This document shows, in pieces, positions 21,125 to 25,727 of a stretch of DNA of 64,000 bases. The translations under genes were made by a program, and so were the position numbers. This stretch comes from Nitrospinia bacterium. GTDB lineage: Bacteria; Nitrospinota; Nitrospinia; Nitrospinales; JAJDAT01. The notes beneath the pieces are model-generated. The model was not told where the DNA came from, made no database searches, and saw only the letters and a list, made by a program, of their open reading frames with translations. How positions within the stretch are numbered: position 1 is the first letter of the stretch; every line of letters begins with the position of its first letter. The DNA lies in assembly GCA_029261715.1 (NCBI GenBank), contig JAJDAT010000030.1:62001-126000 (forward strand), written 5' to 3'.

Positions 21125-22042
21125 TCATCCACTTATTCGATCCAACCATTGGTGATATTCTGAAAACTCTGAAAACTTAACAACACCTGGGACATTGGCA
21201 GGAGCGCCTTCTCCCCCAACAACTATAAAAACTCGGTCGCTTAAGCAATTTCTTAATTGACGGAGATAAATCTCTGCATTTACCGCATCAAAGCAATTAG
21301 AAACGCTAATACCAAGTAACTTAGCCTGACACTCTTCAAGAACTGAGGCAATACCCTCGCAAGAATTATTTGATCCAAGAAAAACAATTCCATTATCGCT
21401 TAAAGCTGTCACAACAGCGCACATCTGAAGTCCTAACTTATGAGTTTCGCCAGGAATGTTGGCCAAAACAACGTTTGTGTTCTTTTTCTTTTCGTTTAAT
21501 TTCTTCCATTTTTCAGACAAAAAAGCTCCTAATAACTCCGACGCAAAGTGCTCTTGAGATATAGTTAATTCTTGAGACCTCCAAGCAACCCCTACTTTTT
21601 TTACAAAAGGAACTGCATAATCGGTAATAAAATGGATTGGATCATGCGCATCCCATTCATGCCGAAGCCCTTCGCTCAATGATTCTTCGTCGTAAAGGAG
21701 AGCCGCTTCCAACCAATTTGAAATGGTCAGGTCAATTTCTGAAAAATCCTTTTCTGTTCCACCATCTTCTATACTGCATGAGTGTATAATAAAGTCTAAC
21801 TCTCTAAGCGTTCTACCCACGACTTTACTTGGCTTATGCCCCGACTCTAAAGCTCTATTTATAGCTTGTAATCGGTCAACTTCGACTCTGCGATATCGAC
21901 GGTGATTGGAAGGAAGCCTGATAGATGCTGGAGCCCCATAGCGCTTTTCCCAAACCCTCAAGGTATGAGTTCCGATTCCTGTTAGTTTTGATAATTCTCC
22001 AATTGTGACGAAATCTTCACTACTTTCGCTATTAAAAATCAT
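21125..22042 (-). CDS. MerR-type regulator with cobalamin-binding domain (CarH/LitR-like)
   Basis: A 305-residue transcription regulator. Residues ~10-80 form a MerR winged helix (VTIGELSKLTGIGTHTLRVW, KRYG, NHRRYRR). The C-terminal part is a B12-binding module with both signature motifs of light-sensing CarH/LitR proteins: W154-x9-EH (164-165) and E199-x-H201-x-x-G204. In characterised CarH, adenosylcobalamin promotes a DNA-binding tetramer that light disrupts, releasing repression. AAGGAG sits 6 nt before the ATG. It is the last gene of a minus-strand series that starts below the photolyase, so it probably controls that locus. Whether it uses B12 and light needs biochemical proof. Confidence 0.88.
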   Translation of the reverse strand: MIFNSESSEDFVTIGELSKLTGIGTHTLRVWEKRYGAPASIRLPSNHRRYRRVEVDRLQAINRALESGHKPSKVVGRTLRELDFIIHSCSIEDGGTEKDFSEIDLTISNWLEAALLYDEESLSEGLRHEWDAHDPIHFITDYAVPFVKKVGVAWRSQELTISQEHFASELLGAFLSEKWKKLNEKKKNTNVVLANIPGETHKLGLQMCAVVTALSDNGIVFLGSNNSCEGIASVLEECQAKLLGISVSNCFDAVNAEIYLRQLRNCLSDRVFIVVGGEGAPANVPGVVKFSEFSEYHQWLDRISG

Positions 22043-22214: not shown

Positions 22215-22916
22215 TTATTCAAAAAAAATAGAGCTTGCAAATTCGTTTGGCAACGCTGCAACTTTAGTCGGTTCGACAATTTTCATTATTTGAATTCCAC
22301 CAGTAGTCAATTTACCCATTAACCGAGAATGAAGAGCCGAGCTTATGAAAGTCATTCCAACTCGAATCCCATAATGTTCCAATTCGGCTCGATCAAACTT
22401 TGACAATCCAACTAATCCTTTTAAATTTCCAGATTTAATTTTATCTTCCATTCGCTTTTGGATCTTTTCAGAAAACATCCATTCGTAAGGGTAATGAGAA
22501 TGATCATGGCCAGCGTGAGATTTAGTAGTCATTGATGTGCGAGCCACCTGGAAATTTTTATCTACAGGAAGAGAACGAGAGTTAAAGGCTCGTTCCGCTT
22601 TCATCTGTTTAACAATCTTGATTCCTGAAGTGGTTTTTTGAAATCGAAATAATTTATTATCAATCTTAGCGTCAAAAGTTCTTCCCTCTTTCACTCCATA
22701 TTGATCCATGATTTTATTTTCAAAGCGTGAAAGACCAAAAGATTTTACCTGAGAATATTTTTTCAACTGTGCATTAATATTGGCTTTGGTTTCGTTTGTG
22801 AACTCCCACTTAATACCAGTATAAGAGTGGTCATGTTCTGAATGGGCCAATGCGACCGAAGCTCCTACCAATAAACCTGCTACTATCAATGCGGATGCTA
22901 AAATTGTTTTTTTCAT
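22215..22916 (-). CDS. Secreted two-module histidine-rich protein (copy A)
   Basis: Unrecognised 233-residue exported protein. After a signal peptide (cleaved after VALA) come two copies of a ~80-residue module, at about residues 25-105 and 137-215. Each opens with a histidine motif (HSEHDHS, HAGHDHS), then a W-x-F-[TS] motif (KWEFT, EWMFS), a GLS motif, Y-G-x-[RV]-x-G-x-TF, and a [TL]-T-[ST]-G-I end. The gene 23258-23944 encodes a paralogue with the same two-module plan. The HxxHDH start suggests metal binding, an inference. AAAGGGA precedes the start. No known family comes to mind. Confidence 0.75.
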   Translation of the reverse strand: MKKTILASALIVAGLLVGASVALAHSEHDHSYTGIKWEFTNETKANINAQLKKYSQVKSFGLSRFENKIMDQYGVKEGRTFDAKIDNKLFRFQKTTSGIKIVKQMKAERAFNSRSLPVDKNFQVARTSMTTKSHAGHDHSHYPYEWMFSEKIQKRMEDKIKSGNLKGLVGLSKFDRAELEHYGIRVGMTFISSALHSRLMGKLTTGGIQIMKIVEPTKVAALPNEFASSIFFE

Positions 22917-22969: not shown

Positions 22970-23182
22970 TTAATAATTAAAATTTAAAGATGAATCATAG
23001 AGATGCGGATACATTTCTTTAAGTTTTTTATAAATACTGGTTTTACCCATCTTCTTTGACGCCACTGTCGATTTATCATCTTCTTCATAAATCTTTTTCC
23101 AAAAATCTTTACTTAGTTCCAAGCTGCTAACTTTGCTTTTCAACTTCCCTTTTGCATCCGAAACTCTGACTTCGTAAAACAT
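22970..23182 (-). CDS. Small basic hypothetical protein (70 aa)
   Basis: A short lysine-rich, signal-less protein lying between the two module proteins, in the same orientation. Two ATGs are available; the second (23182) is preferred because AAGGAG is 7 nt upstream of it and only 1 nt upstream of the first (23188). The sequence shows alternating charged helices (KKLKEMYPHLY at the end) and no motif I know. The gaps of 53 and 75 nt to its neighbours suggest co-transcription. It could be a cytoplasmic partner or regulator of the locus; there is no direct evidence. Confidence 0.6.
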   Translation of the reverse strand: MFYEVRVSDAKGKLKSKVSSLELSKDFWKKIYEEDDKSTVASKKMGKTSIYKKLKEMYPHLYDSSLNFNY

Positions 23183-23257
23183 TTTCATTCTCCTTTTTAT
23201 CTAAAAATATTCGTTGTTAAGTTTTGTTTCAAAAGAGCAATTACCATGCTCTAGAAA

Positions 23258-23944
23258 TCACATAGCCTCTTCTTGAGTCATTGAAGCAACTTGAACGCCT
23301 TTTCCTTCTTCAACAAACAAACCGCCAGAAGTCTTTTTAATATTCAATTGCTTTCCCGCTACTCGCGCATTAAAAGTATTTCCAACTTTGATGTCATACT
23401 TTTTCAGCATTTTTCTTTCATGGGAACTCAAACCAACAACGATTGGAAATTTTCCGGAGACAACTTTTTCAGAAATCTTTGATTGAGTTTTTTTGGAAAA
23501 AACCCATTGATAAGGAAGAGCCGTATGGTCATGACCTTGGTGATGATGACGCATAGATACTTTTTTTATTTCCATAGTCTTTTGAACTGGGATTTGAGGA
23601 ACTGCGGTATTACTAAATCTGTGAACTTCTTTAATCAAGATCCCTGAAGAGGTGCGTTGAAGCGTAATAGTTTTTCCATTTACTTGAGCAAGAAAGCTGT
23701 TACCAACATCCACGTTATAATCGTCGAAAAACTTTTGCTCTAACCGAGAGGTTCCAATGGCAGAAACGTCATGCCTGTTTACTTTCAAAATATTTTCGAT
23801 TTTTGCTTTGGTTTCTTTCGTAAATTCCCATTTCATTGGGAGCTTAGAAAAGTCATGCCCAGAATGGGCAAATGAACTTGTAGAAGTTAGAGCAATTAAA
23901 GAACCGATAGCGATAACTTTTGAAATGATGTTGGCTTTTTTCAT
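23258..23944 (-). CDS. Secreted two-module histidine-rich protein (copy B)
   Basis: Paralogue of the protein at 22215-22916, with a signal peptide ending SSFA and two copies of the same module. Module starts are HSGHDFS...KWEFT and HQGHDHT...QWVFS; the cores contain GTS/GLS, Y-[ND]-[VI]-x-VGN-[ST]-F and TS-[SG]-G-[IL]. An insert of histidines (MRHHHQGHDH) precedes the second module. AGGGG lies 9 nt before the ATG. It is the first gene below the TAGACA repeat region, so it is the most likely direct target of whatever binds there. Function unknown; presumably periplasmic or secreted and metal-binding. Confidence 0.75.
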   Translation of the reverse strand: MKKANIISKVIAIGSLIALTSTSSFAHSGHDFSKLPMKWEFTKETKAKIENILKVNRHDVSAIGTSRLEQKFFDDYNVDVGNSFLAQVNGKTITLQRTSSGILIKEVHRFSNTAVPQIPVQKTMEIKKVSMRHHHQGHDHTALPYQWVFSKKTQSKISEKVVSGKFPIVVGLSSHERKMLKKYDIKVGNTFNARVAGKQLNIKKTSGGLFVEEGKGVQVASMTQEEAM

Positions 23945-24293
23945 CGTATGACCCCTAAAAAATAGTTAGACAAATCGTTAAATACCTAGACATAGTGTTA
24001 ACTTATTCCTAGACATTGTCAACTATTTTGTCGAATTATTTTTCATTAATTCTAGTTTTTTCCTCAAATTACTGAAAAATAATGCTTAATAACTAGACAA
24101 AAATAAAAATATCTAGAGAGATACTCAGGACATATAGACAAAAAAAAGGAAAGCTCGTCTTTTTAGGAAAAATAAGATCGATTTAGAGACGATTTGAAGA
24201 AGACTTTCTATTTCTAAAAGAACTGTCTCAAAATAATGGGAATTCAAAAATAATAGGTAGGAAGTGCCGCAGTTTGCTCTTGTATGTCAACTT
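23945..24293. other. 349-bp intergenic region with the repeat cluster
   Basis: Very AT-rich spacer between copy B of the module proteins and photolyase (both minus strand). Apart from the TAGACA repeats and the Shine-Dalgarno of copy B, I see no ORF, RNA gene or convincing terminator hairpin for photolyase. The promoter of the downstream genes must lie here. Confidence 0.6.
23967..24140. promoter_or_regulatory. Five TAGACA direct repeats, probable operator
   Basis: TAGACA occurs at 23967, 23987, 24010, 24094 and 24135, all in the same orientation, within 174 bp. The first three are 20 and 23 bp apart (about two helical turns) and the third is followed by TTGTCA, giving a partial dyad. By chance a given hexamer is expected about once per 2 kb on either strand. 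The cluster lies 23-196 nt upstream of the first module-protein gene and downstream of photolyase. Multiple same-direction sites spaced by helical turns are what CarH-type tetramers use, so an operator is inferred. Confidence 0.6.
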
Positions 24294-25727
24294 TCAAGCT
24301 GGACTTTGAATTTTAGCTTTTTTATACATATTCAAAGCCATTCTTCTTTGTACCGCATGGTCTACAATAGGAAACGGGTAATCTTTTCCCAAAACACAAT
24401 CAGCCTTACATTGTTCCGTTTGCTTTGCCATTATTGGCCAATGAATATACTTTTTTGAAAATCCACTCAATTCTGGAATTTCGTTTTTTATAAACTCACC
24501 TTCAGGGTCAAATCTTTTTGACTGAGCAATGGGATTAAAGATTCTAAAATAAGGTTGCGCGTCGCATCCCGTTGAGGAGGCCCATTGCCACCCTCCGTTA
24601 TTTGCCGCCAAATCAAAATCTAATAAGTTTTGAGCAAACCAAGCTTCTCCTTTTCTCCAATCAATTAACAAGTCTTTGGTTAAAAAAGAAGCCACAACCA
24701 TCCTCAAACGATTATGCATCCAACCAGTCTTTTTAAAATGCCGCATAGCGGCATCAATTAAAGGATATCCAGTCATTCCATCTTTCCATAATTGAAAATG
24801 CTTTGTTTTCCCTTCCCATTGAATGCCATCATACTCTGGCTTAAAATTCCCAATAACTATATGAGGAAAACAATCAAGAATGGTTTGGTAAAAATCGCGC
24901 CAGATTAATTCCGACAACCATGTTTTGTAGCCTTTAGAATTATTCTTCATCGCAAAACGCACCAAAGCTCTTACAGAAATAGTTCCAAAACGTAAATGAA
25001 TGGATAGCCCCGACGTTCCATTTACTCTTGCTGGATAATCACGATTTGTATCGTATTCCTCGATATACCTTTTAAAAGAATTCAAACGTGACCTGGCTCC
25101 TTTTTCTCCAGGCTGAATATTTGGAAAATTTTGCTTAAAGCCTATTTTTTCTAAGCTCCAATCCCATAGATGCTTTTTGCAAACTTCTTTAGGAGCTAAT
25201 CGGTCCAGCTTGCAAGAAAAATCAGAGTAGCTTTCTTCGCATAACTCTTTTAGCCAAGCATTTTTGTATGGAGTAAATACTCTAAAGGAAGTCCCTTGCT
25301 GAGTTAATACTTCTGGATGCTCGAAAACGACATGGTCTTTATAAGAATTAAAATCAACTCCTATAGATCTCATCTTTTTTAAAACTCGATCATCCCTATC
25401 TTTTGCGCTTGGCTCGTAATCTCTATTTATAAAAACAGCATTAACTTTTAATTCTTTAACAATTTTAAAAACCTCTTTTACTGGATCTCCATACCGTATT
25501 ATTAAGGATGAGTGTTTAGATTTAATAGACTTTTCGAGCTCTCTCAAACAATTCGCAATAAAAGAAACTCTACGGTCGTCTTTATCTTTCAACTTATTCA
25601 GTATATTCGTATCAAAAATGAAAAAGAGGAATACCCTCTCTGACTGTCGAATGGCATGCGACAATGCCACATGATCAGAAAGACGAAGATCTCTTCTAAA
25701 CCAACATAGGGATTGTTTATATTTCAT
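24294..25727 (-). CDS. phrB: Deoxyribodipyrimidine photolyase / cryptochrome family
   Basis: FAD-dependent, blue-light-driven repair enzyme for UV cyclobutane pyrimidine dimers. The N-terminal antenna domain starts LCWFRRDLRLSDHVAL. The FAD-binding C-terminal domain has GTSGLSIHLRFG, LSELIWRDFYQ, GWMHNRLRMVVASFLTK and the invariant NNGGWQWASSTGCDAQPYFR. The electron-transfer tryptophan region WRKGEAWF and the full length of 477 suggest an active class I-type enzyme rather than a pure cryptochrome. AGGAT lies about 6 nt before the ATG. Neighbouring CarH-like regulator fits the light-induced photolyase operons known in other bacteria. Confidence 0.95.
   Translation of the reverse strand: MKYKQSLCWFRRDLRLSDHVALSHAIRQSERVFLFFIFDTNILNKLKDKDDRRVSFIANCLRELEKSIKSKHSSLIIRYGDPVKEVFKIVKELKVNAVFINRDYEPSAKDRDDRVLKKMRSIGVDFNSYKDHVVFEHPEVLTQQGTSFRVFTPYKNAWLKELCEESYSDFSCKLDRLAPKEVCKKHLWDWSLEKIGFKQNFPNIQPGEKGARSRLNSFKRYIEEYDTNRDYPARVNGTSGLSIHLRFGTISVRALVRFAMKNNSKGYKTWLSELIWRDFYQTILDCFPHIVIGNFKPEYDGIQWEGKTKHFQLWKDGMTGYPLIDAAMRHFKKTGWMHNRLRMVVASFLTKDLLIDWRKGEAWFAQNLLDFDLAANNGGWQWASSTGCDAQPYFRIFNPIAQSKRFDPEGEFIKNEIPELSGFSKKYIHWPIMAKQTEQCKADCVLGKDYPFPIVDHAVQRRMALNMYKKAKIQSPA

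Follow-up and report, generated by a model that had tools for sequence, protein, structure and literature searches.

A putative operator of a CarH-type, coenzyme B12-dependent and light-responsive repressor probably lies in a 349-bp gap of the window, the stretch of 64,000 nucleotides from a Nitrospinia bacterium that was analyzed here, where it would control the promoter of an operon ending in the regulator gene itself. The gap separates a photolyase gene (24294-25727, minus strand) from the gene (23258-23944, minus strand) of MOD, a 228-residue protein whose N-terminus is signal-like and which comprises two related modules. Within the gap are five exact TAGACA hexamers, all on the plus strand, at 23967-23972, 23987-23992, 24010-24015, 24094-24099 and 24135-24140, with start-to-start spacings of 20, 23, 84 and 41 bp. 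Read on the minus strand, these are TGTCTA half-sites located at -28, -48, -71, -155 and -196 relative to the MOD start. Downstream of the sites, the order of the minus-strand genes is MOD, a 72-residue ORF (22970-23188), a second two-module protein, MOD2 (22215-22916), 39% identical to MOD, and the gene of the CarH-like regulator (21125-22042). At its N-terminus, the 72-residue ORF shows weak similarity to the small cluster c5 gene present in the MOD-carH operons of relatives. As the operon driven by the putative operator ends in carH, the regulator would be autoregulated. By analogy with known CarH biology, the four genes would be read as a single transcript. In the dark, CarH loaded with AdoCbl would occupy several TnnACA half-sites across the promoter, blocking RNA polymerase; in the light, breakage of the Co-C bond would release CarH, and the MOD proteins together with more CarH would be switched on.

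The regulator presents the domain composition of the CarH/LitR B12-dependent photoreceptor-repressors, namely an N-terminal MerR-type domain with MerR DNA-binding character followed by B12-binding_2 and B12-binding domains. In the Pfam comparison, MerR_1 (47 bits) and B12-binding_2 (31.6 bits) scored above their cut-offs; B12-binding, at 27 bits, fell short of the 32.1 set for it. The protein aligned with the Thermus thermophilus CarH chains 5c8d/3whp at about 1e-18, and it scored 105 bits against the NCBIfam CarH model, below the curated cut-off of 400. The cobalamin signature formed by W-x9-EH and ExHxxG is complete (W154, E164, H165, E199, H201 and G204).

A second CarH gene is carried by contig C20 of the same genome (locus L106), with one TGTCTA in its own divergent promoter region and no MOD beside it. 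The presence of two CarH genes, one of them preceded by such a half-site, leaves room for the alternative that the sites upstream of MOD bind the C20 paralogue, or both proteins, while the adjacent CarH has another job. We consider this unlikely, since 29 loci of relatives, in addition to the window, have MOD and carH adjacent on one strand with MOD upstream, and most of these loci carry the sites, many of them coming from genomes with a single CarH. The linkage was also visible at the level of whole genomes. Among 61 genomes MOD occurred in 27, CarH in 31 and both in 25; CarH was thus present in 25 of the 27 MOD genomes versus 6 of the 34 others (Fisher p 2.5e-9), these relatives being order-level and not phylogenetically independent. 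The adjacent CarH is thus the more probable ligand of the sites.

The hexamer is conserved upstream of MOD. In 30 upstream regions (7.5 kb), 57 TAGACA/TGTCTA were counted versus 4.4 in shuffles, with at least one in 26 of the 30 regions, and the density of sites reached 7.6 per kb versus 0.8 for unclustered genes of the same loci. In an unbiased ranking of hexamers, TAGACA came first (57 versus 2.7 expected), followed by hexamers overlapping it and then by TTGACA; its z of 32.7 overstates independence because the upstream regions are related by descent.

In the relatives, the half-sites follow a conserved layout of alternating inverted orientation, TnnACA-N12/13-TGTCTA-N10(or N8)-TnnACA. Upstream of TGTCTA, a TnnACA lay 12 bp away in 11 cases and 13 bp away in 14, other distances being almost absent; downstream, the gap to TnnACA was 10 bp in 13 cases and 8 bp in 6. 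Among 35 TGTCTA, 25 had an upstream TnnACA at 12 or 13 bp (mean of shuffles 0.6, maximum 4) and 13 had a downstream one at 10 bp (mean of shuffles 0.3, maximum 3); in these shuffles TGTCTA was kept fixed and the remainder was shuffled, the spacings having been picked after the gap histogram was viewed. Several relatives present the chain TATACA-N13-TGTCTA-N8-TTGACA-N12-TGTCTA-N10-TATACA, in which TTGACA is likely the -35 element and the second TGTCTA likely runs into the -10 element (TGTCTAATAT). The promoter overlap is clear by sequence in these relatives, as TTGACA-N12-TGTCTAATAT.

In the window, the region 23945-24140 contains several TnnACA elements: the five TAGACA on the plus strand, and TTAACA, TTGACA and TCGACA on the minus strand. 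The TGTCTA at -71 (24010-24015) matches the conserved operator in both position and geometry, most relatives having a site at -65 to -77. It forms the degenerate N13/N8 unit TCGACA-N13-TGTCTA-N8-TTAACA with two degenerate TnnACA arms on the same strand, TCGACA at 24029-24034, N13 upstream, and TTAACA at 23996-24001, N8 downstream. A TTGACA (24017-24022, minus strand), N1 upstream of the same TGTCTA, could be either a -35 element or a further TnnACA half-site; a sigma-70 promoter scan of the window gave nothing above shuffles. Direct repetition at 20 and 23 bp, which involves the half-sites at -71, -48 and -28, is peculiar to the window, in contrast with the alternating half-sites of the relatives. 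The sites at -155 and -196 have no conserved counterpart upstream of MOD in the relatives.

The published CarH elements have the form nnnnTnnACAn, one of them containing the -35 TTGACA (PMC9304148), and CarH bound to AdoCbl in the dark occupies the TnnACA elements of the promoter and represses it until light releases the protein (PMC9304148; PMC4557120). As in the CarH operators of T. thermophilus, Bacillus megaterium and Myxococcales, the half-site here is TnnACA, in the form TAGACA, the sites precede an operon that holds carH, those of the relatives overlap a likely -35 TTGACA, and the regulator of the window has the cobalamin signature. Unlike these operators, which are tandem direct repeats of 11 bp, the half-sites alternate in orientation (N12/13, N10, N8), the window has extra copies in the same direction at 20 and 23 bp, and the predicted targets are MOD proteins instead of carotenoid genes. 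The first-pass annotation had read the cluster as good candidate regulator sites on the ground that CarH-type operators consist of several direct repeats. The reading as a CarH operator is favored by the adjacency to carH and by the enrichment of the hexamer before CarH genes of other phyla (see below), but a tandem array of 11-bp direct repeats is absent as exact TnnACA, the plus-strand spacings being 20 bp or more. The agreement with TnnACA and the failure of the 11-bp tandem test together led us to call the cluster an operator that works in a CarH-like manner with a variant architecture.

The class II LitR sites, T(G/A)TACA-N12-TGTA(C/T)A (PMC9758184), were also compared. As in LitR class II of Pseudomonas and PplR1, hexamers are paired 12 bp apart with one over the -35 element (TTGACA-N12-TGTCTA in the relatives); in P. 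mendocina a second site lies between the transcription start and the ATG. The N12/13 spacing agrees with the class II consensus, but the hexamers, TTGACA/TCGACA with TGTCTA, differ from it, since they are of the TAGACA/TTGACA type and not TGTACA. Moreover, the regulator of the window differs from these in having a B12 signature, and beside it we noticed no LOV gene.

The occurrence of the motif in CarH loci devoid of MOD was analyzed within and outside Nitrospinota. In Nitrospinota, carH genes without MOD can bear sites (L082, L104 and L107, plus the second carH of the genome, L106). Outside this phylum, 49 CarH loci spanning Planctomycetota, Acidobacteriota/Holophagae, Sumerlaeota and others were picked by peptides of the DNA-binding domain, so that the 49 CarH proteins share a similar reading head; because neither the window nor its relatives are in the set, it constitutes an independent test. 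No MOD was found near these genes within the locus DNA examined. In the 200 bp before carH, TAGACA was again the top hexamer, with 27 occurrences in 13 loci versus an expectation of 0.99 derived from the remaining DNA of those loci. Arrays of TGTCTA-N10-TAGACA with three or four alternating sites were present in three Holophagae/Acidobacteria loci (L215, L217 and L219), where they lie about 70 bp before carH and end about 10 bp before its start, and each of two Planctomycetota has one TGTCTA-N10-TAGACA pair before carH. Given the similarity among the three Holophagae/Acidobacteria loci, the independent count is lower than 27, yet several phyla are still represented. The first rank of TAGACA before CarH genes without MOD argues that the motif tracks CarH.

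These data bear on a second alternative, in which the sites belong to an unrelated regulator, or to promoter elements of an alternative sigma factor, and are connected with carH by co-regulation only. It would account for the overlap of TTGACA-N12-TGTCTA with the -35 and -10 positions in the relatives, and binding of CarH to the sites is itself a prediction. Nevertheless, TAGACA obeys the published TnnACA element of CarH, and in other phyla it ranks first before carH at an N10 spacing, which is not that of a promoter. We thus hold this explanation to be quite improbable, and the operator of a CarH-type repressor remains the better reading.

It had been claimed in the first-pass annotation that five exact same-strand hexamers in 174 bp, three of them spaced 20 and 23 bp, exceed chance, and the question was raised whether equal clusters occur elsewhere in the genome and whether the hexamers are kept upstream of orthologous genes. 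The positions proved exact (starts 23967, 23987 and 24010 for the three), and when the window was simulated 60 times with a first-order Markov model, not one run reached even three TAGACA in 174 bp. Among hexamers containing two or more G/C, TAGACA alone attains five copies on one strand, without overlap, inside 174 bp anywhere in the window. In the whole 5.3-Mb genome, the pattern TAGACA-N5..35-TAGACA-N5..35-TAGACA occurred once, at this place, while the reversed-pattern control gave 0; no equal same-strand cluster thus exists elsewhere at gaps of 5-35 bp, and the hexamers are kept upstream of the orthologous genes in the order-level relatives, so that neither check named in the annotation refuted its reading. 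Although the region is AT-rich and the count of TAGACA in the whole window is ordinary (15 on the plus and 6 on the minus strand, 21 in total versus 19 expected), a chance cluster is hardly credible in view of the simulations, the uniqueness in the genome and the conservation in relatives.

The excess is local, as indicated by the ordinary count in the window (0.16 per kb on the plus strand when the cluster is excluded) and by the pairs in the genome, which are at background: 12 simple TAGACA pairs versus 12 in controls, and mixed-orientation pairs at control level (3 versus 2 and 5 versus 7). A large regulon of exact TAGACA pairs was rejected on these counts. One other multi-site cluster, of mixed orientation, was found on contig C33 (C33:29624-29671; L009:2624-2672). 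It precedes a TIGR01777/yfcH SDR gene by about 100-150 bp and is divergent to a small ORF. The 17-mer TAGACAAAAATAAAAAT is common to this cluster and to the window site at 24094-24099, and the TIGR01777 SDR family (cluster c4) occurs in the carH neighbourhood in 13 loci of relatives, including MOD-carH operons. The C33 cluster is a probable second target of CarH, and its position before the SDR gene and the shared 17-mer support a small CarH regulon.

Upstream of the photolyase gene of the window, neither TAGACA/TGTCTA nor TnnACA-N12/13-TGTnnA was found. The full-length photolyase homologues of relatives had no CarH-type sites upstream; three partial ones had a single TGTCTA less than 25 bp from the start, and one degenerate N13 pair was seen. 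Membership of the photolyase in the CarH regulon is unsupported by the motif.

The modules of MOD form a tandem pair with HxxHD(H) motifs, and HxGHDH-type motifs and a Trp are conserved across the family. No Pfam hit of MOD exceeded its cut-off, and no NCBIfam model matched. AlphaFold modeled the protein well (mean pLDDT 82), and Foldseek returned no match for the model at E <= 0.001. In VIA-align, one module weakly resembled RsmE-type methyltransferases in their N-terminal domain, with Z 6.1 over about 65 residues, which is below the level to be trusted. The family probably consists of secreted His-motif proteins, for which light and B12 offer a first handle, no trusted Pfam or NCBIfam family having been found.

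Nitrospinota include major marine nitrite oxidisers. A literature search, thin on subscription journals, returned no report of CarH or of a CarH regulon in Nitrospinota, nor of the TAGACA word. On a broader proposal we are evenly divided: CarH of Nitrospinota, Acidobacteriota and Planctomycetota may use facing and back-to-back TAGACA half-sites (N12/13 and N10), which would require its DNA-binding domains to be arranged otherwise than in the tandem binding of T. thermophilus CarH, and within Nitrospinota it may place an undescribed, probably secreted His-motif family under the control of light. The alternating layout provides a clear structural test of the DNA-binding modes of CarH, and with the operator word light regulons could be listed, from sequence alone, for uncultured bacteria carrying CarH in several phyla.

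Two further observations concern the relatives. In seven Nitrospinota CarH homologues (L090, L096, L097, L100, L101, L105 and L107), the His of ExHxxG is replaced by Tyr or Gln, W-x9-EH is kept, and the TGTCTA sites are kept in most; a changed cobalamin ligand or a loss of B12 sensing is possible in these proteins. The genes often found after carH are those of CbiX, a TIGR01777-type SDR, DUF4149, a lipocalin or a peroxiredoxin. In 21 loci, the gene of the small CbiX-type chelatase (cluster c2; L075-L107, e.g. L081:9654-10181) either comes after carH or faces it, which suggests that the light operon may be tied to tetrapyrrole or cobalt metabolism.
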